NCBI RefSeq assembly: GCF_010730575.1
Contig: NZ_AP022614.1
Location: 3,534,001-3,598,000 of the forward strand
DNA: 64,000 nucleotides
Direction of reading: 5' to 3'
Source: Mycobacterium parmense
GTDB taxonomy: Bacteria > Actinomycetota > Actinomycetes > Mycobacteriales > Mycobacteriaceae
Positions 36,091 to 54,828 of this stretch are shown here, piece by piece. Position 1 is the stretch's first letter; each line of letters starts with the position of its first letter. A program made the translations under genes and the position numbers. The notes beneath the pieces are model-generated. The model had not been told where the DNA came from, made no database searches, and saw only the letters and a list, made by a program, of their open reading frames with translations.

Positions 36091-36439
36091 CCGAAGGGGC
36101 GGGTGCCATAGCGGACGACGCTGTCGCACTGCCGCGCGACCGGCTCAGGCGTAGGTTGTGGCCGTGCAGGGGAAGAAGCGGCGTGCGGCGAACGCGCGGC
36201 AGAAGATGGACATGGCGATGAGCGCGCCCATCATGGCCGGGCTGCGGATCAGGCGGCCGGCGCGAATCGCGTCGCGGGCGAGGGCCGCGGCCGCGCCCCG
36301 CCCCCGGCGGGGTGGGCGCCGCATTCGCGTAGGCGTGGGGCTGCCCGACAGGCTCGCCGCCAAGCTGCGCGCGCCTCGCCCGCCGCGACGGGGCCAGCTC
36401 AAACGGCTGGCCCCGGGGAGCTGACTCGAGCGGCTCAAC
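36091..36439. other. 349-bp gap, possibly with a small basic ORF
   Basis: Between the SDR and monooxygenase stops. A plus-strand frame from GTG 36158 to 36424 (88 codons) is open but is almost only Arg, Ala, Pro and Gly, with no ribosome site. A similar open frame exists on the minus strand (36438-36145). Both look like by-products of high GC. A C/G-rich patch at 36285-36320 is the only other visible feature. Confidence 0.4.
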
Positions 36440-38355: not shown

Positions 38356-38428
38356 GTCCTCGACTGTACGGCGCCGCCGCGGGCGCCGCGGCCAGCGGCG
38401 GCCCGTCCGGGTGGGTATGTTCTGGGCC

Positions 38429-39373: not shown

Positions 39374-39391
39374 CGGGCCGATAATGGCCGG

Positions 39392-40597
39392 ATGCGGTCC
39401 GTCCAGGAACACCAGCGTGTCGTCACCGACCTGATCCGCGCCCGCCCGCCGGGGGCCGTCGCGCTGGCCGCCGCGCAGGGTCTGGTTCTGGCCGACGACG
39501 TGGTCGCGTCGCTGGCGCTGCCGTTGTTCGACAACTCCGCGATGGACGGCTACGCGGTGCGCGCCGAGGACACCGCCGTCGCGACGCCGCAACGCCCGGT
39601 GGTGCTGCCCGTCGCCGAAGACATCCCGGCCGGCCGCACCGACATGCTGACGCTGCAGCCGCACACCGCGCACCGCATCATGACGGGCGCACCGGTGCCC
39701 GCCGGCGCGACCACCATCGTGCCCGTGGAAGACACCGACGGCGGCGTCGAGTCGGTGTCGATCCGGCAGGGCCGTGAACCCGGAAAGCACATCCGCCGGG
39801 CGGGCGAGGACGTCGCGCCCGGCACCACGGTGTTGCGCAGTGGGCAGGTCGTGACGCCGGCCGTGCTCGGGCTGGCCTCGGCGCTGGGACTGGCTGAACT
39901 GCAGGTGATTCCGCGCCAGCGAGTGCTGGTGCTGTCCACCGGCTCGGAGCTGGTGGCGCCCGGCACGCCGCTAAGGCCCGGCCAGATCTACGAGTCCAAC
40001 TCGCTCATGCTGGCCGGCGCGGCGCGGGAGGCCGGAGCCGAAGTCGTCGGCGTCGAGACCGCCGGCGACGACGTCGCGCAGTTCCGTTCGATCCTGGATA
40101 AGCATGCCGGCAATGCCGAAGTGATCATCACCAGCGGCGGGGTCAGCGCCGGCGCCTACGAGGTGGTCAAGGACGTCTTCGGGCGCCAAGGCGATCAGGG
40201 AGTGGAGTTCGTCAAGGTGGCGATGCAGCCGGGCATGCCGCAGGGCGTCGGGCGGGTGGCCGGCGCGACCATCGTCACGCTGCCCGGCAATCCGGTGAGC
40301 GCGCTGGTGTCCTTCGAGGTGTTCATCCGGCCTGCGCTGCGCGCGGCGATGGGCCTGCCCGATCCGCACCGGCCGCACCGGCCCGCCGTCCTCGCCGAAT
40401 CGCTGACGTCGCCGCGCGGCAAGCGCCAGTTCCGGCGCGCCATCTACGACCGCGACGCCGGCAGCGTCACCAGTTACGGCCCCCCGGCGTCGCACCACCT
40501 GCGATGGCTGGCGTCGGCGAACGGGCTGCTCGACATTCCCGAGGACGTCGTCGAGGTGCCGGCCGGGACCCGGCTGGAGGTCTGGGACCTGAGTTGA
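39392..40597 (+). CDS. moeA: Molybdopterin molybdenumtransferase MoeA
   Basis: 401-residue MoeA, inserting molybdate into adenylylated molybdopterin to finish molybdenum cofactor. Family motifs DNSAMDGYA (about 47-55), GRTDML and MTGAPVPAGA (domain III), STGSELV and TSGGVSAGAYE (MoCF-binding domain), and LPGNPVSALVSFEVF are complete. By position it is Rv0438c (moeA2). It is followed by psd after 62 bp. Confidence 0.94.
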   Translation: MRSVQEHQRVVTDLIRARPPGAVALAAAQGLVLADDVVASLALPLFDNSAMDGYAVRAEDTAVATPQRPVVLPVAEDIPAGRTDMLTLQPHTAHRIMTGAPVPAGATTIVPVEDTDGGVESVSIRQGREPGKHIRRAGEDVAPGTTVLRSGQVVTPAVLGLASALGLAELQVIPRQRVLVLSTGSELVAPGTPLRPGQIYESNSLMLAGAAREAGAEVVGVETAGDDVAQFRSILDKHAGNAEVIITSGGVSAGAYEVVKDVFGRQGDQGVEFVKVAMQPGMPQGVGRVAGATIVTLPGNPVSALVSFEVFIRPALRAAMGLPDPHRPHRPAVLAESLTSPRGKRQFRRAIYDRDAGSVTSYGPPASHHLRWLASANGLLDIPEDVVEVPAGTRLEVWDLS

Positions 40598-40659
40598 CCC
40601 GCGGGTGTGGCCGTCTCGCGGCCGAAGACCAACCGGCCCGGGCTCCGTAAGATGGCCGC

Positions 40660-41394
40660 GTGGCAAGACGCCCCCGAACGGTCGGTCCGACAGCCGAGGA
40701 CCCGACCTTCAGCCCGCAACACGCGCTTGAGCTGGTGCGCTCCTCCGTTCCACCGATTCATCGGGCCGGGCGGCCATTCGTCGCCGCCGGGTTGGGCCTG
40801 GCCGTGGTGGGGCGCAACCATCGGTGGATCCGGCGGTCGGGCCTGCTGGCGGCGGGCGCGTGCGCGGCGTTCTTCCGGCACCCCTCGCGCGTTCCGCCCG
40901 ACCGCGCCGGCGCGGTCGTCGCGCCCGCCGACGGCGAGATCTGCGTGATCGACTCCGCGGCCCCGCCCGCCGAACTCGGCATGGGTTCGGAAACGGGGGC
41001 AGCCCCGCTGCCCCGGGTCAGCATCTTCCTTTCGCTGCTGGACGCCCACGTCCAGCGGTCGCCCGTCAGCGGCGAGGTGATTGCCATGCGGCACCGGCCG
41101 GGCCGGTTCGGTTCGGCCGACCTGGCCGCGGCGAGCACCGAGAACGAGCGGACCAGCCTGCGCATCCGGACGGCCGGCGGGGCGGAAGTCGTCGTCGTGC
41201 AGATCGCGGGTCTGCTGGCGCGCCGCATCGTGTGCGACGCCCGCGTCGGGGACACGCTGTCGATCGGCGAGACCTACGGCCTGATCCGCTTCGGCTCCCG
41301 GCTGGACATCTATCTGCCGGCGGACGCGGAAGTGCTGGTGAGGGTCGGGCAGCGCGCGGTCGCCGGCGAGACCGTGCTGGCCGAGCTGCCATGA
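40660..41394 (+). CDS. psd: Phosphatidylserine decarboxylase Psd
   Basis: 244-residue short-type decarboxylase turning phosphatidylserine into phosphatidylethanolamine. A hydrophobic N-terminal segment (about 40-72) anchors it. VAPADGEIC and [20 protein letters not shown] are family blocks. The proenzyme self-cleaves at Gly212-Ser213 in LIRFGSRLD to make the pyruvoyl cofactor. The GTG 40660 start matches Rv0437c (231 residues) with a 13-residue longer N-terminal part. It overlaps pssA by 4 bases (ATGA), joining consecutive steps of one pathway. Confidence 0.95.
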
Positions 41395-42281
41395 TCAGCA
41401 AGCCGCGCACCAGGCGGGGGGTCGACCTGCACATCCTGCCCAGCGCAATGACCGTGCTGTCGATCTGCGCCGGACTGACCGCGATCAAGTTCGCCCTCGA
41501 GCATCAGCCCAAGGCGGCGATGGCGCTGATCGCCGCGGCCGCCATCCTCGACGGGCTCGATGGCCGGGTGGCCCGCATCCTGGACGCCCAATCACGCATG
41601 GGCGAGGAGATCGACTCGCTGGCCGATGCGGTGAACTTCGGCGTGACGCCCGCGATCGTGGTGTATCTGACGCTGTTCGCGCAGTCACCGGCCGGCTGGA
41701 TCGTCGTGCTGCTCTACGCGGTGTGCGTGGTGCTGCGGCTGGCCCGATACAACGCGTTGCTCGACGACGGAACCCAGCCCGCCTACACACACGAGTTCTT
41801 CGTCGGGATGCCCGCGCCGGCGGGCGCCGTCTCGATGATCGGCCTGATCGGGCTGAAGCTTCAGTTCGGCGAGGGCTGGTGGACGTCGCCGGTGTTCCTG
41901 TGCATCTGGATCACCGGAACGTCGATGCTGATGATCAGCAAGATCCCGATGCGCAAGATGCACGCCGCCGCGGTGCCCCCGAACTGGGCGGCGCCGCTGC
42001 TCGCGGTGCTGGCAATCTGCGCGGCGGCCGCGGTGCTGGCGCCCTACCTGCTGATCTGGGTGATCATCGTCGCCTACCTGTGCCACGTGCCGTTCGCGGT
42101 GCGCAACCAGCGCTGGCTGGCCGCGCACCCGGAGGCGTTGGCGGACAAGCCCAAACAACGTCGCGCCGCGCGCCGCGCGATCCGCCGGGCGCGACAGCCC
42201 AGCCGCCGGTCGATGGCGCGGCTCGGGCTGAGAAAGCCGGGCGCCAGACCAGGGGGCAAACCGGGCGGGCGTCTGCGATGA
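41391..42281 (+). CDS. pssA: CDP-diacylglycerol-serine O-phosphatidyltransferase PssA
   Basis: 296-residue membrane enzyme making phosphatidylserine from CDP-diacylglycerol and serine, upstream of Psd. The CDP-alcohol phosphotransferase motif [20 protein letters not shown] runs on to DSLAD (residues about 64-88), with all Asp ligands. About six to eight membrane helices follow, and the C-terminal 50 residues are a basic tail ([17 protein letters not shown]). The start lies in the psd stop, and the stop lies in the next gene's start (ATGA both times). Confidence 0.95.
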
Positions 42282-44467
42282 CGCTCGACCCGGCCGGCAC
42301 ACGTCAGCTCACCCTGACCGCCCGGCTGAACACGTCCGCGGTCGACTCCCGTCGCGGCGTGGTCCGCCTGCACCCCAGCGCCGTTGCCGCGCTGGGGATC
42401 CGGGAGTGGGACGCCGTGTCGCTCACCGGGTCACGCACCACCTCGGCCGTTGCGGCGCTGGCCGGTCCGGGAACCCCCGCCGGCACCGTGCTGCTCGACG
42501 ACGTGACGCTGTCCAACGCCGGACTGCGCGAGGACACCGCGGTGATCGTCGGGGCGGTGACCGTCCACGGCGCGCGGTCGGTCACGCTGTCCGGCTCGCC
42601 CCTGGCCACCCAGTCGCTGACGCCGGTCACCCTGCGACAGGCCTTGCTCGGCAAGGTGATGACCGTCGGCGACGCGGTGTCGCTGTTGCCGCGCGACCTG
42701 GGCCCGGGCACCTCTGCCCCTTCCTCTCACCGGGCCGCCGCGCGGGCGCTGGCCGCCGCCGTCGGGATCAGCTGGACCTCGGAGCTGTTGACCGTCACCG
42801 GCGTCGATCCCGGCGGGCCCGTCAGCGTGCAGCCGAACTCCCTGGTCACCTGGGGCGCCGGTGTTCCCGCGGCGAGCGGCGCTCCCGCTGCCGAGCCGTT
42901 CGAGGTCACCAGCCCGGGGATCCTCGTCGAGGAGCTCAAGGGCTCGGGGCCCCAGGCTGCCAAGCTCTCCGAATGGCTCAAGCTCGCGCTCGACGAGCCG
43001 CACCTGCTCAAGACGCTGGGAGCCGGTGCCAACCTCGGGGTGCTGGTCTCCGGACCCGCCGGGGTGGGCAAGGTCACGCTGGTGCGGGCGGTGTGCGACG
43101 GCCGCAGGCTGGTCGAACTCGACGGCCCGGAGGCCGGCGCGCTGGCCGCCGACGCCCGACTGAGCGCGGTGGCGTCGGCGGTGAAGACGATTCGCGACGG
43201 CGGCGGCGTCTTGCTGATCACCGACGTCGACGCCCTGCTGCCCGCCACCGCCGAGCCGGTCGCCTCGCTCATCCTGGGCGAGCTGCGCACCGCGGTCGCC
43301 ACCGAGGGAGTCGCCCTGATCGCTACGTCCGCACGTCCCGACCAACTCGATCCCCGGCTGCGCGCCCCCGACCTGTGCGACCGCGAACTGGGCCTACCGC
43401 TGCCCGACGCCCCGACCCGCAGGTCGCTACTGGAGGCGCTGCTGAAGCCCGCTCCCACCCGAGACCTCAATCTTGACGAGATCAGCCATCGCACACCGGG
43501 TTTCGTCGTCGCCGACCTGGCCGCGCTGGTGCGCGAAGCGGCGCTGCGGGCGGCGTCGCGGGCCAGCGCCGACGGGGAGTCGCCCGAGCTGCACCAGGAG
43601 GACCTCGTCGGCGCGCTGACCGTCATCCGGCCGCTGTCCCGCTCGGCCGGCGAAGAGTTGACCGTCGGGGACGTGACGCTCGACGATGTCGGCGACATGG
43701 CCGAGGCGCGGCAGGCGCTGACCGAGGCGGTGCTGTGGCCGCTGCAGCATCCCGACACCTTCGCCCGGTTGGGCGTCGAGCCGCCGCGCGGGGTGCTGCT
43801 GTACGGCCCACCCGGCTGCGGCAAGACCTTCGTCGTCCGCGCGCTGGCCAGCACCGGGCAGCTGTCCGTGCACACCGTCAAGGGCTCCGAGTTGATGGAC
43901 AAGTGGGTGGGCAGCTCGGAAAAGGCGGTGCGCGAACTCTTTCGGCGGGCCCGCGACTCGGCCCCGTCGCTGATCTTCCTCGACGAGGTCGACGCGCTGG
44001 CGCCGCGCCGGGGGCAAAGCTTCGACTCGGGCGTGACCGACCGGGTGGTGGCCGCACTGCTGACCGAGCTGGACGGCGTCAACCCCCTGCGCGATGTCGT
44101 GGTGCTGGGCGCCACCAACAGGCCGGACCTGATCGATCCCGCCCTGCTGCGCCCGGGCCGGTTGGAGCGGCTGGTGTTCGTCGAGCCGCCTGACGCCGCG
44201 GCCCGAAGCGAAATCCTGCGCACCGCAGGCAAATCCATTCCGCTGAGCGCCGACGTCGACCTCGAGGGCGTCGCGGCGGCCCTGGACGGCTACAGCGCGG
44301 CCGACTGCGTGGCGCTGCTGCGCGAGGCCGCGCTGACCGCGATGCGGCGCTCCATCGATGCCACCGACGTGACGGCCGCAGACCTCGCGACGGCGCGGCA
44401 GAACGTGCGCCCGTCCCTGGACCCCGCGCTTGTCGAGTCCCTGCGCGCGTTCGCCGGGGCCTTTTAG
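42278..44467 (+). CDS. VCP/Cdc48-like tandem AAA ATPase (Rv0435c-like)
   Basis: 729-residue tandem AAA protein. The N-terminal double-psi-barrel-like domain (about 1-190) is followed by D1 with Walker A GPAGVGK (259-265) but a Walker B reading LLITDVDAL, which lacks the catalytic Glu. D2 has intact Walker A GPPGCGK (510-516), Walker B LIFLDEVDA and sensor GATNRPDLIDPALLRPGR. D1 is thus probably a binding, non-hydrolysing ring. The ATGA overlap with pssA couples it to phospholipid synthesis; M. tuberculosis keeps this arrangement. Substrate unknown. Confidence 0.92.
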   Translation: MTLDPAGTRQLTLTARLNTSAVDSRRGVVRLHPSAVAALGIREWDAVSLTGSRTTSAVAALAGPGTPAGTVLLDDVTLSNAGLREDTAVIVGAVTVHGARSVTLSGSPLATQSLTPVTLRQALLGKVMTVGDAVSLLPRDLGPGTSAPSSHRAAARALAAAVGISWTSELLTVTGVDPGGPVSVQPNSLVTWGAGVPAASGAPAAEPFEVTSPGILVEELKGSGPQAAKLSEWLKLALDEPHLLKTLGAGANLGVLVSGPAGVGKVTLVRAVCDGRRLVELDGPEAGALAADARLSAVASAVKTIRDGGGVLLITDVDALLPATAEPVASLILGELRTAVATEGVALIATSARPDQLDPRLRAPDLCDRELGLPLPDAPTRRSLLEALLKPAPTRDLNLDEISHRTPGFVVADLAALVREAALRAASRASADGESPELHQEDLVGALTVIRPLSRSAGEELTVGDVTLDDVGDMAEARQALTEAVLWPLQHPDTFARLGVEPPRGVLLYGPPGCGKTFVVRALASTGQLSVHTVKGSELMDKWVGSSEKAVRELFRRARDSAPSLIFLDEVDALAPRRGQSFDSGVTDRVVAALLTELDGVNPLRDVVVLGATNRPDLIDPALLRPGRLERLVFVEPPDAAARSEILRTAGKSIPLSADVDLEGVAAALDGYSAADCVALLREAALTAMRRSIDATDVTAADLATARQNVRPSLDPALVESLRAFAGAF

Positions 44468-44519
44468 CGCCGCCCGTGCGCCGACGCCGCGGCGGGGTGG
44501 TTGCTGAACGCATTGCTGC

Positions 44520-44541
44520 GGCCGGGTTTGAACTCCCGGCC
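44520..44541 (+). terminator. Hairpin after the AAA ATPase gene
   Basis: A perfect 7-bp stem (44520-44526 with 44535-44541) and an 8-base loop, 52 bases past the stop codon. It may end the moeA-psd-pssA-ATPase transcript. Its loop resembles a tRNA T-arm, but no tRNA can be built around it. Confidence 0.45.
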
Positions 44542-44611
44542 CGTTCGCCTCGTAACCAAATCACATACATCATTTCGTCGAGGTCGTGGCACGCCGCCGA
44601 GGAGAGAACAC

Positions 44612-44653
44612 ATGAACGATGAGCGGCCCGTCCTCGTGAGGTGGCGGCGATGA
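44612..44653 (+). CDS. 13-codon leader ORF overlapping the MFS gene
   Basis: ATG 44612 is preceded by a strong GAGGAGAG ribosome site with 6-8 base spacing and encodes MNDERPVLVRWRR. Its stop TGA (44651-44653) overlaps the ATG of the MFS gene (44650) as ATGA. The MFS start itself lacks such a site, so translation of the exporter may depend on the leader. The Arg-Trp-Arg-Arg end could be a stalling sequence. It could also simply be a coupling device or chance. Confidence 0.5.
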   Translation: MNDERPVLVRWRR

Positions 44654-46077
44654 TCGCCACCCTGCCGTCCCCGCGCCTGGCCCCCACCCTCGGCGCGCGC
44701 CGGCCCGGCCCGCTCGGAAAGGTTCACGACGCGGCGCCGACGAGCCGGGTCATGGTGGTGGCCGTGATGGTGTCGATGGTCGCCTTCCTCGACAGCACCG
44801 TCGTGAACCTGGCCCTGCCGGCCACCGAGCGCGATCTCGGCGGGGGCATGTGCCTGCAGCAGTGGGTCGTCGACGGCTACCTGCTGGCGCTGGCCGCCAT
44901 GATCCTGCCGGGCGGCGCCATCTCCGACCTGTTCGGGCGGGTTGCGGTGATGCGGTTCGGGCTGTTGGCGTTCGGGACGGGCTCGGCGCTGGCGGCCACC
45001 GCGATCTCGCCGGCGATGCTGATCGCCGGGCGCGTCGTGCAGGGTCTGGGCGCGGCGTTTCTGGTACCTGGATCGCTGGCCTTGATCAATTCCACGTTCG
45101 GCCACGCACGCCGGGCCGCGGCGGTCGGCACCTGGACCGCCTGGACCGGCACCGCGTTCGCGCTCGGCCCGCTGCTGGGCGGCCTGGCGGTCGACCTGCT
45201 GAGCTGGCGATGGATCTACGTGTTGTCGGCCGTTCCGATGGCCGTCGGCTTCGCCCTGACCTTCTGGCTGCGCCCGATTCCGCGACCCGCCCGAAGCGCC
45301 CGCCTCGACGTCGAAGGGGCCGCGCTGGCGGCAATCGGCCTGTCGGGCAGCGTATTCGCGCTCATCGAGGCGGGAAAGCACGGGTGGCACTCGGGTTTCG
45401 TCGCATCGCTGGTGGTGGGGGTCGCGGCGTTGCTGGCGTTCGTGGCATGGCAGCGCCGCGCGCCGCACCCGTTGGTGCCTCCGGACCTGTTCGCGAGCCG
45501 CACGTTCGCGAGCGCCAACCTGATCACCGCCTTCGTTTACGGCGCGCTCACCATGGCCTCGCTTGCCGTCTCGCTCTACATCCAGGAGGTCGCGGGTTAC
45601 GGCGCGACGGTCGCGGGCCTGGTCACCCTGCCCAGTCCCGTCATTTCGTTCCTGTTCGCCAGGCGGGTCGGCGGCCTGGCCGCCCGGATCGGGCATCGGT
45701 TCTTCCTGACGACGGGACCGTTGGTGGCCGCTGCCGGCCTGCTGCTGATCCGGCCGGGGCGCGGGTTCGACATCGCCACGCACCTGCTGCCCGGGGTGAT
45801 CCTGCTGGCCGCCGGCATGGTTCTCACCAGCACCCCGCTGACGGCGCTGAACCTGTCGTCGGTGCAGCCGGCCCGCGGCGGAGTGGCGGCCGCCGTCCAG
45901 AACGCGGTCGGCCGGACGTCGGCGTTGACCTCGGTGGCGTGCCTGGGACTGATCGCCGCCGGCAGGCTGACCGACGCCAGCTTCGCCCGGCTGCTGCAGG
46001 TGGCCGCGGGGTTGTTCGTGATCGGCGCGTTGGTCGGCGGGTTTTCCGTCACCAAGGTGAAGCAAATTTGCAGTTGA
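44650..46077 (+). CDS. MFS drug exporter, EmrB/QacA-like
   Basis: 475-residue major facilitator with about 12-14 membrane helices. Motif D1-like LDSTVVNLALPA in helix 1, motif A-like GGAISDLFGRVAVMRFG, motif C-like GTAFALGPLLGGLAVD (drug antiporter signature). It probably exports a small hydrophobic compound in exchange for protons. ATG 44650 is favoured because it overlaps the leader ORF; GTG 44641 in frame is possible. It ends 77 bp before the luxE-like gene on the same strand and may belong to the same island function. Confidence 0.88.
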   Translation: MIATLPSPRLAPTLGARRPGPLGKVHDAAPTSRVMVVAVMVSMVAFLDSTVVNLALPATERDLGGGMCLQQWVVDGYLLALAAMILPGGAISDLFGRVAVMRFGLLAFGTGSALAATAISPAMLIAGRVVQGLGAAFLVPGSLALINSTFGHARRAAAVGTWTAWTGTAFALGPLLGGLAVDLLSWRWIYVLSAVPMAVGFALTFWLRPIPRPARSARLDVEGAALAAIGLSGSVFALIEAGKHGWHSGFVASLVVGVAALLAFVAWQRRAPHPLVPPDLFASRTFASANLITAFVYGALTMASLAVSLYIQEVAGYGATVAGLVTLPSPVISFLFARRVGGLAARIGHRFFLTTGPLVAAAGLLLIRPGRGFDIATHLLPGVILLAAGMVLTSTPLTALNLSSVQPARGGVAAAVQNAVGRTSALTSVACLGLIAAGRLTDASFARLLQVAAGLFVIGALVGGFSVTKVKQICS

Positions 46078-46106
46078 CTGCACTATTGCTTACAACTGCA
46101 TATACC
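46069..46106 (+). promoter_or_regulatory. Candidate operator/promoter of the luxE-luxC operon
   Basis: A palindrome TGCAGT-TG-ACTGCA (46069-46082) is followed by a second half-site, so TGCAGTTG (46069-46076) and CAACTGCA (46093-46100) also form a perfect 8-bp inverted repeat. TTGACT (46074-46079) and TATACC (46101-46106) may be promoter elements, although the 21-base spacing is long. It lies partly in the end of the MFS gene, directly before the operon whose last gene is a TetR regulator. Confidence 0.5.
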
Positions 46107-46154
46107 GGTTAGGGTGAGGCTGCGACGGGGCCATACTCGAATCGAGGGATGCCA

Positions 46155-47591
46155 ATGGCGGCAACGAAAACGGCAGCGCGGCCGGTGGGTGAATTCATGG
46201 ACGACCCGATCGGCTTCTTCGGCCAGTCCTACACACAGATGCACAGCATCGAACGCGACGAGCTCGAAGCGCTGCAACGCCAGGCGATGGGTATCCGATT
46301 TCACCAGCACTACCGAAGCATCGAGATGCTGCGCAAGCTCGCCGACCGGCTGGGTATCACGGCCATAGATGAGTTCAATGATGTTGTGCCGTTGATGTTC
46401 TCACACACGGCGTTCAAGTCGTACCCCGCGGCGCTGATCGACAGGAAGCGCTTCGACCTGATGACCGGCTGGCTGGACAAGCTGACCAGCTACGACCTGT
46501 CCGCCGTGGACACCGCCGGATGCACCGGCATCGACGACTGGATCGACCGGCTTGACGCGCAGACCCCACTGGAAACCATCACGTCCAGCGGCACCACCGG
46601 CACCATCTCGATCCTTCCCAAGGACAAGCGCGGCGCCGAAGAGGGCATGAGGCTCTGGAAGATCTGCCTCTTCCAGACCTTCGGCCAGGAACCGACGGAC
46701 GCCGAACTCAATCCCTCGGTCGATGTCGTGTGGCCGAACTTCGCCAACGGCAAGCTCGGACATCTGCGTATCGCCAACATGATCAAGCGGGGATTCACCG
46801 GCGGCGACGAACGCAGGTTCCATGCCCTCTACCCGTTCGCGGTCGATACCGATCTGATGTTCCTGGCGTCCAAGATGCGCGCCGCGGCATCCCGCGGGGA
46901 GCTCGATCGGCTCGAGATCGATCCGGCGCTGGCCGCCCGCAAGGACGAGTTCATCGCCATGCAGGCCCGCCAGGCACAGGACATGGACGCGTTCTTTACC
47001 CGCATCACCGACCAGCTGCGGGGGAGGCGGGTCTTCATGCTCGGCACCTACCACCTGATGTACGACATCGCCAAGGCCGGCCTCGACCGGGGCGTGCGCA
47101 ATGTCTTCGCCCCCGACTCGGCGATCCTGACCGGCGGCGGCATGAAAGGCATCGCGCTGCCTGAAGATTTCATGGACGTCATCAAAGACTTTCTCGGCGT
47201 CGACCGCATCCAGCAGGGATACGGGTTTTCCGAGTCCAGCACCTTCCACTGGGGTTGCAGCGCGGGGCGCTACCACGTGGCACCGTGGGTCATCCCGTTC
47301 GTGCTCGACCCCGACACCAGCGAGCCGCTCCCTCGCACCGGTGTGCAGACCGGACGCGCGGCCGTCTACGACATTCTGCTGCGCGCCCACTGGGGCGGCG
47401 TCATTTCCGGTGACGAGGTCACCATTGACTGGGACCTCCGATGTCCGTGCGGGCAGGTCAGCGTCGCCTTCGAGAAGGACATCATTCGCTACAGCGACAA
47501 GCATGGCGTCGAAGACGACCGGATCACCTGCGCCGCAACGCAGGAGGTGCACAACGAAGCCGTGAACTTCATGAAGGGAGTGGATCTCTGA
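46155..47591 (+). CDS. LuxE-like acyl-protein synthetase
   Basis: 478-residue member of the LuxE/AMP-forming acyl-protein synthetase family, predicted to activate a carboxylic acid as acyl-AMP and pass it to a cysteine or partner. The adenylate-forming loop TSSGTTG is at 143-149. Other family blocks are FMLGTYHLMYDIAK and QQGYGFSESSTFHWGCSAGRYHV, and Cys-rich CPCGQ lies near the C-terminus. ATG 46155 has GAGGG six bases upstream; ATG 46149 lies against the ribosome site and is less likely. It is the first gene of a four-gene run with LuxC, SDR and TetR, each junction overlapping by 4 bases. In luminous bacteria LuxE and LuxC form the fatty-acid reductase complex making aldehyde. Confidence 0.88.
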   Translation: MAATKTAARPVGEFMDDPIGFFGQSYTQMHSIERDELEALQRQAMGIRFHQHYRSIEMLRKLADRLGITAIDEFNDVVPLMFSHTAFKSYPAALIDRKRFDLMTGWLDKLTSYDLSAVDTAGCTGIDDWIDRLDAQTPLETITSSGTTGTISILPKDKRGAEEGMRLWKICLFQTFGQEPTDAELNPSVDVVWPNFANGKLGHLRIANMIKRGFTGGDERRFHALYPFAVDTDLMFLASKMRAAASRGELDRLEIDPALAARKDEFIAMQARQAQDMDAFFTRITDQLRGRRVFMLGTYHLMYDIAKAGLDRGVRNVFAPDSAILTGGGMKGIALPEDFMDVIKDFLGVDRIQQGYGFSESSTFHWGCSAGRYHVAPWVIPFVLDPDTSEPLPRTGVQTGRAAVYDILLRAHWGGVISGDEVTIDWDLRCPCGQVSVAFEKDIIRYSDKHGVEDDRITCAATQEVHNEAVNFMKGVDL

Positions 47592-49045
47592 TCGCCTACA
47601 CTGTCCCGCTATTCCTGCGGGGGCAGGTCATCACCGACAACCTTGTTCCGTTCGATAGCCGGATTGGTGCATCGCAGTTCCGGGCGCCTGACATGAGCAA
47701 ATACGTCGACCAACTCCCGCTGGCAAGCCCAGCCGAGATGACCGACCTCTACGAGCTGAGCTTCGGCGAGATCCTCGACGTGCTCGAGTCGCTGGGCAAT
47801 GCCTTGGACTTCGAGTCGAACGCCCACCTGCAGGAGGCCTACGAAGCCTCACTGATCGCCAACGTGTTGCCCGCGGAAATGCTGAGGAATAGCTATCTCG
47901 TACTGCGGCAACTATTTTCGCGGGACAATGTCACCGAGATCGCCGAGACCCAGGTGGGATTGTCCTACCTCAACGGGTGGGTACCCCAGACGCTGCGCGA
48001 CGGCCGCCAACTGCGGGTGCGCGCTTTCGGGTCCCGCACCCTTCACATCCCGGCAGGCAACGGCGGCCTGGTCTCCGCCGTGACGATCCTGCGCTCGGTC
48101 ATCACCCGATCCGATGCCATCATCAAGGCGCCGTCCAACGACCCCCTGACCGCGATTGCGATCGCCCGCACGCTGGCCGATGTGGCACCGGATCACCCGA
48201 TCACCAGGCATCTGACGGCCGGTTACTGGAAGGGTGGCGATCTGGCCGTCGAGGAAGCTTTGTACCAACCCCACCACATCGAGAAGATCGTGGCCTGGGG
48301 CGGCCTGGCATCGGTCAAACATGTGACCCGTTACATCCAACCTGGATTGGAGCTCATCGCGCTGGACCCCAAGCGCAGCGCGACCATCATCGGTCGCGAG
48401 GCGTTCGACGACGACCCCACGATGCGGGAGGTGGCCCGCCGGGCCGCGACCGACATCGGTGTGGCGAACCAGGAGGGTTGTGCCAACGCCCGGGTTATCT
48501 ACGTGCTCAGCGGAACCGACTCCGCGGGTCTCGCCAACGCCAATCGGCTCGGCGAACTCATCTACCAGGAACTGTTGTCGCTGCCCGCGATCGTGAGCAC
48601 CCCACCGCTGTACCCCGACCGTGAGCTCATCGACCACGTCGAGGCCTCGCGAATGACCGAGGACTTCTATCGCGTCATCGGTGGCGAGCGGCGCGAGGGC
48701 GCCATCGTCGTCTCCCAGATGGATGAGCCTGTGGACTATTCGACGATGCTGTCCGGCCGGGTCGCCAACATCGTGCCGGTGGACGACATCGACAAGGTGA
48801 CCGCCGCGGTCAACAGCTACACGCAGACGATCGGCATCTATCCCGAATCCCTGAAGCGCCGATTGCGCAACACGCTGCCGTTGTTCGGCGCCCAGCGAAT
48901 GACCAGCCTGGGCTACGCGTGCAACGTCGCTGTCGCCGCGCCGCAGGATGCCATCGAACCGATCCGCCGCATGTGTAAGTGGATTGTCGACGAGGAATGC
49001 GATCCCGGCGTCGTCACCCCACTGTGGGAACTCGCGCAGGCATGA
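47588..49045 (+). CDS. LuxC-like long-chain acyl reductase
   Basis: 485-residue LuxC-family protein, predicted to reduce an enzyme-bound or CoA-bound fatty acyl group to the aldehyde with NADPH. The cofactor region RTLHIPAGNGGLVSAVTILR and the catalytic Cys298 in NQEGCANAR match LuxC's QQACFS site; YTQTIGIYPESLKRR corresponds to the C-terminal block of LuxC. Homology at the N-terminus (VPLFLRGQVIT, like PLIINGQIVS of LuxC) extends upstream of the first ATG (47693). The only suitable start is CTG 47588, overlapping the luxE-like stop (CTGA) with AAGGGAG seven bases upstream. With LuxE it should form a fatty-acid reductase; no LuxD thioesterase is nearby. Confidence 0.87.
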   Translation: MIAYTVPLFLRGQVITDNLVPFDSRIGASQFRAPDMSKYVDQLPLASPAEMTDLYELSFGEILDVLESLGNALDFESNAHLQEAYEASLIANVLPAEMLRNSYLVLRQLFSRDNVTEIAETQVGLSYLNGWVPQTLRDGRQLRVRAFGSRTLHIPAGNGGLVSAVTILRSVITRSDAIIKAPSNDPLTAIAIARTLADVAPDHPITRHLTAGYWKGGDLAVEEALYQPHHIEKIVAWGGLASVKHVTRYIQPGLELIALDPKRSATIIGREAFDDDPTMREVARRAATDIGVANQEGCANARVIYVLSGTDSAGLANANRLGELIYQELLSLPAIVSTPPLYPDRELIDHVEASRMTEDFYRVIGGERREGAIVVSQMDEPVDYSTMLSGRVANIVPVDDIDKVTAAVNSYTQTIGIYPESLKRRLRNTLPLFGAQRMTSLGYACNVAVAAPQDAIEPIRRMCKWIVDEECDPGVVTPLWELAQA

Positions 49046-49974
49046 CCAGGCGCCTGACCGCCATGGGCGTCGTCGAGGGAATCGACCTGTCCGGCAAGAC
49101 GTGTGTGATCACGGGCGCGTCGTCGGGGCTGGGCCGCGAGTCGGCCCGGGCGCTGGCCGCCGCCGGCGCTCACGTCGTCCTGGCAGCGCGCGACACCGAC
49201 GCGCTCAGGCAAACGGCCAAGTGGGTGTCTGCAGAGGTGCCGGGAGCGCGCACCTCGACGGTACATCTCGACCTTACGTCGCTGGCGAGCGTTCGCACGG
49301 CCGCAACGACCATCCAAGAGATCAGCCCGGTGATCGACGTCTTGATGAACAACGCCGGCGTCATGTTCACCCCATTCGGCCGCACCCGCGACGGCTTCGA
49401 ATTGCAGTTCGGGACAAATCATTTGGGCCACTTCGAACTCACCCGGCTCCTCGTCCAACCGCTGACCGCCGCCGGCGGCGCCCGGGTGGTGATCCTGTCG
49501 TCCGGCGGACACGTCATGGGTGACGTGGACTTTGGCGACCCCAATTGGGAGCGCCGCGAATACGACAAGTTCGCGGCCTACGGCGCGTCCAAGACGGCGA
49601 ACATCCTGCACGCGCTCGACGCCGATCGACGCCTGCGCGAATTCGGAATCCGCGCCTACGCCGTCCATCCGGGAACGGTGGCGACCTCGCTGGCGCGGTA
49701 CATGTCGCGTTCGGATTTTTCACGGTTACGCGAATACGCCGCAGCGAGCACCGCAGCGCACGGCGAACCAACCGATGGCTACCTCGAGTTCACCACCCCC
49801 GACCATGGTGCGGCCACCCAGGTGTGGGCGGCGGTCAGCCCCGAACTGAATGGCAGGGGTGGGCTGTACCTCCTGGATTGCGGAGTCAGCGAAGCGGTCG
49901 CCCCCTACGCATGTGATGAGCGCAGGGCCGCGCAGTTGTGGGCGCTCTCCGAGACATTGTGCGCGGCGCGATGA
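49042..49974 (+). CDS. Short-chain dehydrogenase of the lux-like operon
   Basis: 310-residue SDR of the same retinol-dehydrogenase-like subfamily as those at 35176 and 38429. TGASSGLG (about 24-31), NNAGVMFTPFGRTRDGFELQ in register, Ser in ILSSGGH, and AAYGASKTANILHAL with the catalytic Tyr and Lys. In this operon it could reduce the LuxC aldehyde to the alcohol or oxidise a related substrate (inference). The ATG at 49042 overlaps the LuxC stop by 4 bases, and its own stop overlaps the TetR start. Confidence 0.9.
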   Translation: MTRRLTAMGVVEGIDLSGKTCVITGASSGLGRESARALAAAGAHVVLAARDTDALRQTAKWVSAEVPGARTSTVHLDLTSLASVRTAATTIQEISPVIDVLMNNAGVMFTPFGRTRDGFELQFGTNHLGHFELTRLLVQPLTAAGGARVVILSSGGHVMGDVDFGDPNWERREYDKFAAYGASKTANILHALDADRRLREFGIRAYAVHPGTVATSLARYMSRSDFSRLREYAAASTAAHGEPTDGYLEFTTPDHGAATQVWAAVSPELNGRGGLYLLDCGVSEAVAPYACDERRAAQLWALSETLCAAR

Positions 49975-50543
49975 ACAGGACCGAACGGCGCAAGCGTGAA
50001 GTGCGCGAGAAGATCCTCACTGCTGCCTTTGATCTCTTTCTGGACCAGGGGGTTTCAGCCACCAAGATCGAGGAGATCTGCCAGCGCGCCGACGTCGCCA
50101 ACCGGACGTTCTTCAACCACTTCTCGACCCGGCAGGACATGATCCGGGCGCTGGCGGAGCGCAGACTGGTCAATCTGCACGACGTCGTCTTCGGTCGCGC
50201 CGATGAAGCGGTGCCGGCGCGGCTGGTCGGCGTGTTCGACGACATCGCCGCCGCGCTGGCCGAATCGGGCGACACCTACAGAGAGATGATCGGTGAGATG
50301 CTGGCAATCAGCGGCTACGGCATCCAGCGAGGATCCCACCTGCATGACACTTTCGTCGAGCTGGTCAAAGACGGGGTCGCTCGCGGCGAAGTCAGCACAC
50401 GACACGACGCGGAGACCCTCGCCGACATCGCCGTCGGGGCGTTGTCCGGCGGCATCCTCAACTGGACGCTCGATCCGGGCTATTCGCTGGAAACCAACCT
50501 GCACCGACTCGGCGCCGCGCTCGCCGACCTGTTGGCGGTCTAA
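49971..50543 (+). CDS. TetR family regulator of the lux-like operon
   Basis: 190-residue TetR repressor. The helix-turn-helix lies at about 28-62 (SATKIEEICQRADVANRTFFNHF) and is followed by a helical ligand domain. ATG 49971 overlaps the SDR stop (ATGA), so it is the fourth co-translated gene and probably controls the operon by feedback; the palindrome at 46069 is a candidate operator. The C-terminus overlaps the convergent crotonase gene by 4 bases. A fatty aldehyde or acyl-CoA ligand is a guess. Confidence 0.88.
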   Translation: MNRTERRKREVREKILTAAFDLFLDQGVSATKIEEICQRADVANRTFFNHFSTRQDMIRALAERRLVNLHDVVFGRADEAVPARLVGVFDDIAAALAESGDTYREMIGEMLAISGYGIQRGSHLHDTFVELVKDGVARGEVSTRHDAETLADIAVGALSGGILNWTLDPGYSLETNLHRLGAALADLLAV

Positions 50544-51358
50544 GGCTCCGGCAGCGCCGCCCAGTCGTCCGACACCCGCGCGGTGAACCGCGGCGGGCGC
50601 CGCTCGAGGAACGCCGCGACCCCTTCGCGGGCGTCGGCGCCGCCCATCACCCGTTGGTGCAGTTGGGTTTCCAGCGACGCGACCTGCCGCGGCGTGTAGC
50701 TCTTGATCGCGCTGTCCCAGAGCAGCCGCTTGCACAGCGCCGCCGACATCGGCGCGACGTTGGCCGCGATGTCACTGGCCATCATCACCGCGTGGTCCAG
50801 CACCTGCTCGGCGGACGTTGCGCGACTGGCAATTCCGAGCGCCACCGCCTCGGCGCCGCCGAATGTCCTTCCGGTGAGCAGGATGTCGGCTGCCACCCCA
50901 AGGGTGGTCAGCTGCGCCAGCGTCCAATGCGCCATGCAGTCCGGAAGCACCCCGCGGCGCACCTGCACCACACCGTATTTCGCTTCGTCGGCGACGATGC
51001 GGATGTCGGCCTGCAACGCAATGGTCAGCCCGATCCCGATAGCGTGGCCGTTGACGGCGGCGATCACCGGTTTGCGAAGCTCGAAGGCGGCCGGGGTGAT
51101 GGGCGATGCCGAGAAGGTGCTCGGCTCGTCGGGAGCCTCGAACGGACTTGTGTCGGCGGAGAAGTCGGCCCCGGCGCAGAAGGCCCGGCCCGCCCCGGTC
51201 ACCACGATGACGCGGACGTCGTCGTCCTCGTCGCAGTCCCGGTAGGCCCTGCTCAGCAAGGCACCCATCTCCGCGGTGTAGGCGTTGAGGCGATCGGGGC
51301 GGTTGAGCGTGATCACCGCCACCCCCTGGTCGACGTCGACGGTCACTTCGGCGCTCAC
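50540..51358 (-). CDS. Enoyl-CoA hydratase/isomerase family protein
   Basis: 272-residue crotonase-fold protein. The oxyanion-hole blocks GAGRAFCAGADF and NGHAIGIGLTIALQADIRI are good. At the position of the first catalytic Glu of true hydratases it reads VRRGVLPDCMAH, without Glu, so it may be an isomerase, thioesterase or other crotonase-type enzyme. GTG 51358 overlaps the stop of the luciferase-like gene (GTGA); an open extension upstream is a shadow. It is last in a minus-strand run starting from Rv0430. Confidence 0.85.
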   Translation of the reverse strand: MSAEVTVDVDQGVAVITLNRPDRLNAYTAEMGALLSRAYRDCDEDDDVRVIVVTGAGRAFCAGADFSADTSPFEAPDEPSTFSASPITPAAFELRKPVIAAVNGHAIGIGLTIALQADIRIVADEAKYGVVQVRRGVLPDCMAHWTLAQLTTLGVAADILLTGRTFGGAEAVALGIASRATSAEQVLDHAVMMASDIAANVAPMSAALCKRLLWDSAIKSYTPRQVASLETQLHQRVMGGADAREGVAAFLERRPPRFTARVSDDWAALPEP

Positions 51359-52377
51359 GGGCGGGCCGGGATCCGGTGCAGGGCGGCGACCAGGTCGGCG
51401 ACGTCGGCGCTGCGCGGCCGGTAACCGGGGAAGTAGCAGCACACCTCGGCGGCGTGCTCGCCGAAGCGTGCGCCGATCTGCTCAGCGCATTTCTCGGGGC
51501 TGCCCACGATCCCGATCCGGGCCACCATCTCGTCGGTGATCAGCCGGCGCATCGCGGCGAAGGCGCCCTGCTTGGACAGTGCGTTCAGTTCGGGCTGGGC
51601 GCCGGCCCACCCCTCGACCTCGAGCACGGGCAGATAGGCCGGGGTGGACCCGTAGAACGCGATCAGCGACGCCACCCCGTTCACGGCCGCCGTGAGGTCC
51701 GCGTCGTCACGGCCGACGGCGACCATGGCCTGCGCGACGATGGGGAAACTCTCGCTCGTCCGCTTTGCGCGGCGCAGGCCCTCATGCACCGCCGGGATGG
51801 TGCGCTCGGCGAAATGGCGAGAACTGTTGAACGGCATCACCAGTAACCCGTCGGCCGCCTCGGCGGCCGTGCGGGTCATGATCGGCCCGAGCGCTCCGAG
51901 GAACACCGGCGGTGGGCCGAACGGGTTGGGGCCGGGGTTGAAGTTGGGCGCCATGATCGTGTGGGTGAAGAACTCGCCGCGAAAGTCCAAGCGGCTCTGG
52001 CCTTCCCATGCGGCGAAGATCGCCTTGATCGCGGCGACGGTCTCGGCCATCTTCGCCGCGGGCCTCTCCCACGTGCTGCCGTACCGCTTTTCGATGTGGG
52101 CCTTGATCTGGGAGCCCAGGCCCAGCCGGAACCGGCCGCCGCTGTAGAGCTGCAGGTCGTAGGCGGCGTGCGCCAGGTGCAGCGGGCTGCGCGGCGCGGC
52201 AATCGCCACGTTGGTCATCAGCTGCAGCCCGGTCGCCCCGGCGGCGATCAGCAACGGGAAGAACACGTCGTGCTGGCCCTCGAAGGTGAACAGTCCGTCG
52301 GCGCCGGTGGAGGCGACGTCGCGGGCGCTCGCCGCCGCCTCGGTCGGTGAGCCGTCGATCTGCAGATGCACCTTCAT
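51355..52377 (-). CDS. Luciferase-like (LLM class) F420-dependent oxidoreductase
   Basis: 340-residue protein with the bacterial-luciferase TIM-barrel fold. LFTFEGQHDVFFPLLIAAGAT, the block RSPLHLAHAAYDLQLYSGGRFRLGLGSQ and the C-terminal GSPEKCAEQI are typical of the mycobacterial F420 group (TIGR03617-like). It would use F420H2 on an unknown substrate. It shares the fold of LuxA but in this group is not a light-producing enzyme. The start overlaps the Lon-N gene's stop (ATGA). Its presence 2.3 kb from luxC/luxE homologs, on the opposite strand, is noteworthy. Confidence 0.9.
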   Translation of the reverse strand: MKVHLQIDGSPTEAAASARDVASTGADGLFTFEGQHDVFFPLLIAAGATGLQLMTNVAIAAPRSPLHLAHAAYDLQLYSGGRFRLGLGSQIKAHIEKRYGSTWERPAAKMAETVAAIKAIFAAWEGQSRLDFRGEFFTHTIMAPNFNPGPNPFGPPPVFLGALGPIMTRTAAEAADGLLVMPFNSSRHFAERTIPAVHEGLRRAKRTSESFPIVAQAMVAVGRDDADLTAAVNGVASLIAFYGSTPAYLPVLEVEGWAGAQPELNALSKQGAFAAMRRLITDEMVARIGIVGSPEKCAEQIGARFGEHAAEVCCYFPGYRPRSADVADLVAALHRIPARP

Positions 52378-53027
52378 TCGGAGAGCTGGAACTCCACCAT
52401 CTCGGCGAGGGTTTCCACGGCCTCGCTCAGTGCGGCCAGCCGCTCGGCGGCCGACGGCGCCTCGAGCACCGCGTAGCGGTCGGCCGCGCCGATCGGGAGG
52501 CGAGACGCCAAGGCGAACAGGCGTTGTCCCGCGCTCGCGTCGGGCGCGAGCTCGTCGTGGCCGAGCAGCACGTCACGGTCCGGCAGCACTGCGTCGCGGG
52601 CTTCGGCGATCCTCTCGAACAGGGCCACGATCCGGTCCTCCAGGTCCACCAGCTGGGCGCCCGTCACGGGATCGCCCGGCTCGTCGGGCCACAGCGTCAC
52701 GGTGGCCCGCGGGTAGGGATCGTCAGGCAGCCATTCGCGCACGCGGATCCGTTCGCCCGCTCGGCAGCGCAACGAGTACCGGCCCGCGCCGTGATCGACG
52801 CATTCCTCGATCCTGACCACTACGCCGGTGTCGCAGCGCGCATCGCCGCCGCCGACCTCGCGGCCGCGGGAGATGAGCACCACGCCGAACGGGTCGCCAC
52901 TGTCGAGGCAGTCCCGGACCAGCGCGCCGTAGCGGGGCTCGAAGATCCGCAACGGCAAGTCGACGTCGGGCAGCAGCGCGGACTCCAGCGGAAACATCGG
53001 CAAGCAGGTGAGTTCGAGATCGGCCAT
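52374..53027 (-). CDS. Lon N-terminal (substrate-binding) domain protein (Rv0434-like)
   Basis: 217-residue stand-alone Lon-N/PUA-like domain: CLPMFPLESALLPDVDLPLRIFEPRY at the start, GDPFGVVLI, and a helical C-terminal part. No ATPase or protease domain follows. In cereblon-like and bacterial proteins this domain binds degron or small-molecule ligands. The length agrees with Rv0434. It overlaps the start of the ligase gene by 1 base and that of the LLM gene by 4, so the backbone operon reads straight into the accessory genes. Confidence 0.9.
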   Translation of the reverse strand: MADLELTCLPMFPLESALLPDVDLPLRIFEPRYGALVRDCLDSGDPFGVVLISRGREVGGGDARCDTGVVVRIEECVDHGAGRYSLRCRAGERIRVREWLPDDPYPRATVTLWPDEPGDPVTGAQLVDLEDRIVALFERIAEARDAVLPDRDVLLGHDELAPDASAGQRLFALASRLPIGAADRYAVLEAPSAAERLAALSEAVETLAEMVEFQLSE

Positions 53028-54160
53028 CAGAATTCCAGCTCAGCCACCAGTTCGTCGACGACCGCGCGCAGATCGCCGTCATGTTCCTCGGCAACCCTAC
53101 GCTGGCGTTGGTAGGAGGCGCCCTTCCGGGGGATGTCGGCCACCGCGGCCAGTTCGTCGACACAGTCCAGCGATTTCGCGACCGGTTCCAGCTGGGTCAG
53201 CACGTCGTCGAGGTCCTCGGTCACCAGCCGCTCGTTGCTGTCCGCGTCCAGGATGATGACGGCGTCGAGGCCGTACCTCGCTGCGCGCCACTTGTTCTCC
53301 TGAACGTGCCAGGGCGGCATGTCGGGCAGCGTCTCACCGGCGTCCAGCCGGTGGTCCAGGTCGACGATCAGGCAGTGGGTCAGCGCGACCAGCGCGCCCA
53401 GCTCACGCAGATTGGACACCCCGTCGCAGATGCGCACCTCGAGGGTGCCCAGGTGCGGCGAAGGCCTGATGTCCCAGCGGATTTCGTTCATATGATCGAT
53501 GATGCCGGTCTTCTTCTGGTCGTAGACGAAGCCTTCGAACTCCGCCCAGGTCTGGAACTGGAACGGCAGCCCGGCGGTGGGTAGCTGCTGGAACATCATC
53601 GCGCGGTTGCTGGCGTATCCGGTGTCTTCGCCGCCCCACCACGGCGAGGAGGCCGAGAGCGCCAGCATGTGGGGGTAGTACCTCAGCAACGACGACATGA
53701 TGGGCATCACCTTGTTCGCCGACGAGATGCCCACGTGCACGTGCACCCCCCAGATCAGCATTTGCCTGCCCCACCACTGCGTGCGTTTGATCAGTTCGGC
53801 GTAGCGGGGGGCATCGGTGAGTTTCTGGGTGGACCAGCGGGCGAACGGGTGCGTGCCGGCGGAGAAGAGCTCCATGCCTCGGTCGCGCACAATCCGGCGC
53901 GCCGGGCCCAGAGTCTCGCGCAGGTCGTCCATCGCCTGCCCCGCGCTGTCGCAAACGCCGCTGACCACCTCGACCGTGTTGCGCAGCAACTCCTGGTGCA
54001 CGCGCGGGTTTTCGCCGATCTCGGCGATGACGGCGGCGGCCTCGTTGCTGAGGTCCCGGGTCTTCGCGTCGACCAGGGCGAACTCCCACTCCACGCCGAT
54101 GGTCGGCCGCGGTGAGGGGGCGAAATCGATGTGCGCCCTTTTCCTGTTGTCTTGCGCCAC
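53027..54160 (-). CDS. Glutamate-cysteine ligase-like carboxylate-amine ligase (YbdK type, Rv0433-like)
   Basis: 377-residue ATP-dependent ligase of the GCS2/YbdK family. GVEWEFALVD holds metal-binding Glu residues, WGVHVHVGI the His pair, and RWDIRPSPHLGTLEVRICD the conserved Arg/Asp core. Members have weak glutamate-cysteine ligase activity; the true role in mycobacteria, which make mycothiol, is open. GTG 54160 gives the length of Rv0433 (376) and touches the sodC stop (TAGTG). Confidence 0.92.
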   Translation of the reverse strand: MAQDNRKRAHIDFAPSPRPTIGVEWEFALVDAKTRDLSNEAAAVIAEIGENPRVHQELLRNTVEVVSGVCDSAGQAMDDLRETLGPARRIVRDRGMELFSAGTHPFARWSTQKLTDAPRYAELIKRTQWWGRQMLIWGVHVHVGISSANKVMPIMSSLLRYYPHMLALSASSPWWGGEDTGYASNRAMMFQQLPTAGLPFQFQTWAEFEGFVYDQKKTGIIDHMNEIRWDIRPSPHLGTLEVRICDGVSNLRELGALVALTHCLIVDLDHRLDAGETLPDMPPWHVQENKWRAARYGLDAVIILDADSNERLVTEDLDDVLTQLEPVAKSLDCVDELAAVADIPRKGASYQRQRRVAEEHDGDLRAVVDELVAELEF

Positions 54161-54828
54161 TAGCCCGAACCGATTACACCGCACGCGACGCGCTTGCCGA
54201 CGTCTGCGTTGTTCATCCCCATGCCGGCCATGCCGCCGGCACCCTCGGCGCCGGCGTGGATGATGATGGCGGTCTTCTCGCCGGTGAGCAGGTCGTCCAT
54301 GCCGAATGCGTCCGTGGTCGTCACCAGCATCCCCGCCCCGCCCTTGCGCACGGCGAGCGCGGGCAGGTCGCCGCTGGCGGGTTCGGAGTTATGCCCCGGC
54401 GCCTGGAAGTGTCCGCCGGCGGACAGGAAGTCCCCCGGAGCGCCGCCGGCCGGGTCGACCGAGTTGGGCTCGCACTTACCGACCTTGTGGACGTGGACGT
54501 CGTGGAGGCCCGGCGCGAGCATATTGTTCGCGGTCGTCTCGATGGTGATGGTGGCATAGCCGTTGTTGAAGGCGAACTGCGCGGTCGCCACCTCGGTGCC
54601 GTCGGGCGCCTTGAGGTGCGTGGCGATGATCGACGAATCCCCGGGCGCGGCTTGCGCCTTCGCCATTTGCGACGGCGCGGGCGACCCGGTCCAGATGGGC
54701 GGCGGGGTGCCCTGTGTGGTCGCGGCGTGCTGGGGTGACGAACAGGCCGTCGCCAGCGCGGCACCAACCAGTGCGGACAGGGCGACGGCGGCGACGGCGG
54801 CGTTGCGGGAACCGGGAAGCTTGGGCAT
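54160..54828 (-). CDS. sodC: Lipoprotein Cu superoxide dismutase SodC
   Basis: 222-residue periplasmic superoxide dismutase. Signal peptide with lipobox LATAC (Cys29), then a linker and the beta-barrel with copper-site [18 protein letters not shown], and [13 protein letters not shown]. tuberculosis SodC works with copper but without zinc. It protects against host superoxide at the cell surface. Shorter than Rv0432 (240). A pair of hairpin repeats lies upstream. Confidence 0.94.

Follow-up and report, generated by a model that had tools for sequence, protein, structure and literature searches.

The stretch of DNA analysed here, which we call the window, is 64,000 nucleotides of the Mycobacterium parmense genome (contig NZ_AP022614.1, positions 3,534,001 to 3,598,000), and it carries an operon in which a LuxE-like gene and a LuxC-family gene are followed by genes for a short-chain dehydrogenase (SDR) and a TetR-family regulator. 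Open reading frames and Pfam matches (E <= 1e-3 unless stated otherwise) confirmed the four co-directional genes at 46149-50543 that had been proposed from the sequence alone, and a candidate operator and a possible promoter lie in front of them:

46068..46100, no strand assigned: candidate TetR operator, 33 base pairs, two tandem inverted repeats TTGCA-N5-CTGCA-N3-TTGC-N6-CTGCA
46086..46115, plus strand: possible promoter as judged by eye, TTGCTT at 46086-46091, 18 base pairs, TAGGGT at 46110-46115
46149..47591, plus strand: LuxE-like acyl-adenylate-forming protein, 480 amino acids, with an SSGTTG loop at residues 146-151 and a C-terminal Cys461
47588..49045, plus strand: LuxC-family acyl reductase, 485 amino acids if the start is CTG and shorter if it is the ATG at 47693, with Cys298
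49042..49974, plus strand: SDR, 310 amino acids, PRK06196-like, PF00106 at 4.8e-31
49971..50543, plus strand: TetR-family regulator, 190 amino acids counted from ATG, PF00440 (TetR_N) at 1.5e-11

The TSSGTTG loop named in the sequence-only reading corresponds to residues 145-151 of the LuxE-like protein, and its QEGCANAR motif to residues 295-302 of LuxC, Cys298 included. That reading also had the genes overlapping by four bases at every junction. This holds for the ATGA overlaps at 49042-49045 and 49971-49974, whereas the LuxE/LuxC overlap, CTGA at 47588-47591, requires a CTG start for luxC; at this position, nine of the ten nearest public relatives (L070-L079) carry GTG and one carries TTG. 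The start of the operon had been noted at 46069, which lies on the inverted repeat TGCAGTTGACTGCA, symmetric in 12 of its 14 bases and 80 bases 5' of the luxE start codon. The SDR scores 321.2 bits for PRK06196, under the cut-off of 414. Two paralogues of it are found elsewhere in the window, at 35176-36090 and 38417-39373, about 50% identical across about 210 residues.

The second protein belongs to the LuxC family, as had been proposed. It matches PF05893 at 4.6e-33 (115.1 bits against a cut-off of 21), with residues 57-465 aligned to positions 4-401 of the 401 in the profile, and it matches the solved LuxC chain 7xc6_A at 1.8e-29. A cysteine of the Cys298 type is the catalytic residue of LuxC, and it is kept in all 94 aligned LuxC proteins, that of locus L065 included. 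The possibility that this protein is an ordinary aldehyde dehydrogenase was rejected because LuxC is its only Pfam family. Its score with the luminous-type LuxC equivalog NF052251 (128.1 bits) does not reach the cut-off of 750. In its own genome, searched as one contig of 5.95 Mb, two further genes match PF05893 above the cut-off but far more weakly (29.6 and 27.5 bits), and we took these for cross-hits within the aldehyde dehydrogenase superfamily.

For the first protein, strict membership of the LuxE family is not supported, because the Pfam and NCBIfam cut-offs are both missed. It has no Pfam family at the usual threshold, and up to E = 10 it has only AMP-binding (0.22) and no match to PF04443 (LuxE), which is also without a match in the whole of its own genome; with the luminous-type LuxE equivalog NF052244 it scores 19.1 bits against a cut-off of 550. 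The subfamily nevertheless leans to LuxE. PF04443 matches six of 15 aligned members (E <= 0.01), the only other family being a stray glycosidase model, and precomputed PF04443 matches are present on 24 of the 120 homologues listed, with no other family on them. When the family profile was compared with solved chains, it found LuxE (7xc6_E) at 1.2e-12 and PaaK at 5e-5. Better scores to PaaK-type ligases and ordinary aldehyde dehydrogenases had been named as the result that would speak against a LuxE/LuxC pair; by sequence, LuxE is ahead of PaaK for the first protein and LuxC stands alone for the second. The sequence-only reading is partly supported on the whole, and its description of a LuxE/LuxC-type pair with SDR and TetR is supported.

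The AlphaFold model of the LuxE-like protein (mean predicted local distance difference test score, pLDDT, of 84.8) has an adenylation fold of the CoA-ligase type. By fold, PaaK-type and other CoA ligases were the best among the matches listed for the model; LuxE has the same adenylation fold, and the absence of 7xc6_E from this list carries no information. The PaaK chains align only up to about residue 330-334 of their 425-433, in comparison with a model whose tail is of low confidence, and so the C-terminal domain of PaaK, which serves thioester formation in the CoA step, seems to be absent from the LuxE-like protein. Beyond residue 450 the mean pLDDT is 56-57 per block, and this tail contains Cys461. 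The cysteine is present in 92 of 92 LuxE-like relatives, and it was aligned to the C-terminal cysteine of LuxE by a chain of three steps (window to L064, L064 to the LuxE of L065, and L065 to 7xc6_E) rather than by a single direct alignment. In LuxE the C-terminal cysteine is the acyl carrier (acceptor). Short or broken pieces were excluded from these sets of 92 LuxE and 94 LuxC proteins, in which one locus is counted twice (L110 is the same as L046). The LuxE-like gene is present as a single copy in its own genome.

LuxE and LuxC have co-diverged: across 86 loci their distances gave a Mantel r of 0.963, which none of 999 permutations reached and to which shared species history contributes. 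The LuxE-like gene is also under purifying selection. Its ratio of nonsynonymous to synonymous substitution rates (dN/dS) is 0.09-0.11 against five chosen near relatives (L070, L071, L074, L076 and L077) and is the lowest of the compared genes in four of the five, GCS2 being lower against L071. In comparisons with L080 and L082 the values are 0.15 and 0.17, with LuxC lower in both.

The candidate operator contains the first hexamer of the possible promoter and also the stop codon (46075-46077) of the transporter gene that precedes the operon. When the window is aligned with 18 public loci, identity is 98% in the core bases of the operator, 61% in the spacers, and 46% and 52% in the flanks; another upstream alignment, made up of the window, 15 public and 3 further upstream regions, was also used for reading the promoter. 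At two or fewer mismatches the site occurs once in its own genome, and a reversed control gave none. For comparison with public genomes we used the best 80 of 313 places encoding a relative, with genes predicted by a home-made codon-bias caller, so that some starts are surely wrong. The operator (two or fewer mismatches, before luxE) and this TetR (at least 60% identity) are both found in 15 of the 80 loci. In three (L081, L083 and L097) the operator is present but the fetched stretch contains no such TetR, two (L098 and L104) carry the TetR on a stretch that starts within luxE, and the other 60 have neither, including L101 with a 40% TetR match and a site before it. Orthologous TetR genes that are detached from the operon (L084, L085 and L098; 70-71% identical) are also preceded by a copy of the site, within four mismatches in L084 and within two in L085 and L098. 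Nine syntenic loci that lack luxE and luxC showed neither the site (four or fewer mismatches) nor this TetR; these loci had been picked for carrying a luciferase-like (LLM) gene, so that its presence there is by choice. From this distribution, TetR, the site, luxE and luxC appear to go together as a unit in most cases.

We consider it rather probable that the operon specifies a carboxylic-acid reductase that is split over two proteins, depends on ATP and NADPH, is controlled by TetR and has its own dehydrogenase, leading from acid to aldehyde to alcohol. The gene order, the LuxC membership, the conserved cysteines, the co-divergence, the conserved site with its link to TetR and the purifying selection can be read directly from the sequences. 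Reactions, their direction and the ligand are derived here from Lux chemistry. The LuxE-like protein would use ATP to convert a hydrophobic carboxylic acid into an acyl-adenylate, and the acyl group would then be moved onto its C-terminal Cys461. LuxC would take the acyl group on Cys298 and reduce it with NADPH to the aldehyde, which the SDR may reduce to an alcohol or otherwise process. TetR would occupy the double inverted repeat that overlaps the luxE promoter, and binding of the acid or of a product would release it. An aldehyde-alcohol step after LuxC is suggested by two unrelated dehydrogenase families occupying the same place: in 34 of the 80 loci the gene after LuxC belongs to a cluster of zinc alcohol dehydrogenases, and in 18 it is an SDR similar to that of the operon (two of them at 35-39% identity). 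These gene clusters were formed by single linkage at 28-30% identity, and each cluster name rests on one scanned member.

Several points weigh against this proposal. The literature searched contained no biochemistry of this subfamily, the window LuxE-like protein misses the family cut-offs, the window luxC starts with CTG, part of the Mantel value reflects species history, and the set of 80 loci is rich in Pseudomonas. The gene after LuxC is another or an unjudged one in 28 of the 80 loci (13 with another gene, 6 with a gap of more than 200 bases, 6 with a gene on the opposite strand, 2 where LuxC was not called on that strand, and 1 at a contig end). The LuxE/LuxC pair has been lost or broken in relatives and is therefore dispensable. 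The SDR is kept in six of the nine syntenic loci without luxE and luxC (L150, L151, L154, L155, L156 and L162; it is gone in L152, L153 and L157) and must therefore have some use independent of LuxC, which argues against its serving LuxC alone. Also, genome G031 (L052) keeps the TetR though luxE and the site are gone and only a LuxC remnant is left.

The operon is part of an island flanked by an AAA/CDC48-like gene and a LON-domain gene. The content of the island is variable and includes DUF2867, another TetR, MFS, crotonase and LLM genes, three of which are neighbours of the operon in the window:

44641..46077, plus strand: MFS efflux-type transporter, PF07690 at 1.3e-39, in the same island and shared by some of the relatives
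50540..51358, minus strand: enoyl-CoA hydratase/isomerase family, PF00378 at 3e-51 (open reading frame 50540-51442), in the same island
51355..52377, minus strand: LLM oxidoreductase of the TIGR03617 F420 subfamily, PF00296 at 4.4e-51, 446.9 bits against a cut-off of 278.15

The operon had been described as lacking luciferase and luxD. Inside it there is indeed no luxA, luxB or luxD, and no match to the luxD family (Acyl_transf_2) was found among the called genes from 35176 to 54828. A setting free of luciferase is not supported, though, because a gene of the Bac_luciferase fold and the F420 subfamily is a neighbour of the operon here, on the other strand and 0.8 kb downstream, and in some relatives. 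This LLM gene is one of three in its own genome above the TIGR03617 cut-off. We did not file it as LuxA since the search for solved relatives gave F420-dependent methylene-tetrahydromethanopterin reductases. An LLM gene 72-74% identical to it is the next gene 5' of luxE in L088 and L090; in L081, L082 and L083 one or two genes stand between such a gene and luxE, and in L091 a 70% identical one lies six genes upstream of luxE. At E <= 1e-120, 12 of the 15 genomes that have this luxE/luxC type also have the LLM, versus 20 of the 183 others searched, an association for which shared descent accounts in part.

At high identity, this luxE/luxC type was present in 15 of the 198 genomes of the genus that were searched. 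A full-length LuxE match without stops was found in 11 of the 15; the match is split between contigs in G051 and disrupted in G076 and G103, and G031 has the LuxC remnant already mentioned. In G110, outside the 15, a LuxE remnant runs directly into a LuxC remnant followed by the SDR. Such fused remnants amount to a deletion, and the loss is therefore real. M. triplex, M. marseillense, M. colombiense and M. sherrisii are among the named species closest by LuxE, and in L080 the four genes occur as a group at a position other than the usual one.

More distant LuxE-LuxC types (about 31-44% identical) were found in further mycobacteria. Eleven loci (L053-L063) represent a third mycobacterial type, about 31-37% identical, with neighbours that are 3-hydroxyisobutyrate-dehydrogenase-like (10), CMD proteins (9), TetR (9) and aldehyde dehydrogenases (6), one member of each having been scanned. 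In another Mycobacterium (L065, 7332-10701 in G033:C7) a canonical-type luxE (PF04443 at 8.9e-57), a luxD-type acyl transferase (PF02273 at 1.4e-34) and a LuxC-family gene are found together near MMPL transporter and methyltransferase genes, with no luciferase-type gene among the neighbours scanned. In L064 (G145:C216) a divergent LuxE-LuxC pair is flanked on either side by APH-type kinase genes, and a DUF7065/DUF7064 protein is also encoded there. In Mycolicibacterium xanthum (L110/L046) the pair is followed by a pyridine-nucleotide-disulphide oxidoreductase with Fer4 and a pyruvate:ferredoxin-oxidoreductase-like protein of 1190 amino acids. In L163 (8072-12840, G029) the gene for a protein that matches PF04443 precedes those for a NifU-like protein, a class V aminotransferase and a MacB/FtsX-type permease; L164 and L165 have gene sizes like those of L163, the only one of the three on which the family scan was run.

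Besides mycobacteria, the sources of the best 80 loci include Nocardia, Nocardioides, Marmoricola, Halieaceae, Sphingobium, Pseudomonas, Cupriavidus, Paraburkholderia and other groups. Two clusters recur, mostly in Pseudomonas loci, one of 4HBT thioesterases (14 genes) and one of iron alcohol dehydrogenases (13 genes). Pseudomonas loci also add alkylsulfatase-like (11 genes) and MMPL genes. Some actinobacterial loci have a KshA-like Rieske protein (cluster 50, three loci) and an SMP-30-like protein (cluster 28, seven genes), and the best solved relatives of a P450 in L090 are P450terp and CYP125MRCA. Judged from such gene neighbourhoods, the P450, KshA-like, SMP-30-like and acyl-CoA dehydrogenase genes next to some relatives speak for terpenoid- or steroid-like acids, and not for light production. 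A broader idea, which we think rather unlikely, is that LuxE/LuxC would be a widespread, unrecognised split carboxylic-acid reductase family of soil and water bacteria that is not mainly light-making, and that in actinobacteria it would be partnered with an F420-dependent luciferase-fold enzyme acting on acids of terpenoid or steroid type, as a counterpart of lux that uses F420 and makes no light. A viral origin was considered and rejected; one conserved peptide pattern gave six stretches in viral contigs, none encoding a relative, although this is a weak test.

The same genes could also work in the oxidative, catabolic direction, with the SDR or alcohol dehydrogenase converting an alcohol to the aldehyde, LuxC oxidizing this to an acyl-enzyme and the LuxE-like protein releasing the product. 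In Pseudomonas relatives the neighbours of LuxE/LuxC include the alkylsulfatase-like cluster (one of its genes scanned), a would-be source of alcohols, and genes of the acyl-CoA dehydrogenase type, and beta-oxidation and aldehyde dehydrogenase genes are near some other relatives. An activator that uses ATP would be wasteful in this direction, however, ordinary aldehyde dehydrogenases are already at hand near some relatives, and the recurrent thioesterase fits a supply of free acid to LuxE, so that we regard oxidation as unlikely. Perhaps instead the aldehyde is used by the nearby LLM, as in luminous bacteria but without light, and the SDR is secondary. The LLM genes on the same strand upstream of luxE in six relatives, with at most two genes between in five of them and five genes between in L091, would fit such a use, as would the higher frequency of LLM in genomes with this luxE/luxC type. 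This association is confounded by shared descent and by the shared island, and the LLM occurs in the same island also in species without luxE and luxC, at loci chosen for having it. In addition, L040 and L050 have luxC (and luxE) with no LLM at the site, and the F420 subfamily with its reductase relatives also weighs against the idea; we find this use of the aldehyde distinctly unlikely.

It is very doubtful that the first protein is a PaaK-type CoA ligase from which LuxC would reduce acyl-CoA with no acyl-protein relay, since the C-terminal domain of PaaK is unmatched, an invariant cysteine is present in the tail, and the sequence profile prefers LuxE. Finally, the operon might be a relic, decaying in this lineage and barely expressed. 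The CTG in place of GTG, TTG or ATG at the LuxC start and the broken or lost copies in G076, G103, G031 and G110 could be seen in this light, but the four frames are all open, dN/dS is low and the operator is intact, which makes a relic most improbable.

If the operon is a TetR-controlled split carboxylic-acid reductase, lux-type acyl reduction would be extended to mycobacteria, Pseudomonas, Cupriavidus, Paraburkholderia, Sphingobium and other genomes, in a subfamily that is mostly named hypothetical among the source names of the homologues listed. The candidate regulator-operator pair would offer a handle on the ligand and hence on the substrate, and the patchy loss among close mycobacterial species is a natural experiment on the need for the operon. 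The two proteins might also be an alternative to the carboxylic acid reductase (CAR) enzymes for making aldehydes or alcohols from acids. CAR is one multidomain chain with adenylation, carrier and reductase domains that converts an acid to the aldehyde with ATP and NADPH. The reaction would be the same here if our inference is right, whereas the single-chain architecture is not found: the window has two proteins, and the Pfam scan found no carrier domain in them.

With the luxCDABE genes of luminous bacteria the window operon shares an adjacent LuxC-family reductase and adenylating partner, the catalytic cysteine of LuxC and the C-terminal cysteine of the partner. It differs in having no luxA, luxB or luxD, in including the SDR and TetR genes, in the order E-C, and in a partner of 480 amino acids, compared to 373 in the solved LuxE chain, that falls below the family cut-offs. 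PaaK-type CoA ligases and the phenazine protein 3hgu/3hgv/3l2k have the adenylation fold in common with the LuxE-like protein, to which the C-terminal domain of PaaK was not matched. The sequence-only reading knew of no such operon described in mycobacteria. The literature searched held no recognisable description of one, but the claim has to be qualified, because the mel2 locus of M. marinum has been published and likened to lux; its first gene is luciferase-like, and a clear LuxE was not found by the authors of that study (PMC1793995). The window operon has a LuxE-like protein and a true LuxC-family protein, and is set apart from mel2 by this description rather than by sequence (PMC1793995). 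Genes for luxC and luxE without luciferase are found in the flagellin glycosylation islands of Aeromonas and Enterobacteriaceae, where they are surrounded by genes for glycosyltransferase, acyl carrier protein and ketoacyl reductase functions, whereas their neighbours in the window are SDR, TetR, crotonase and LLM genes (PMC7874193, PMC4875605). Lux-type reductases without luciferase are already known elsewhere, and the window operon is a variant of these.

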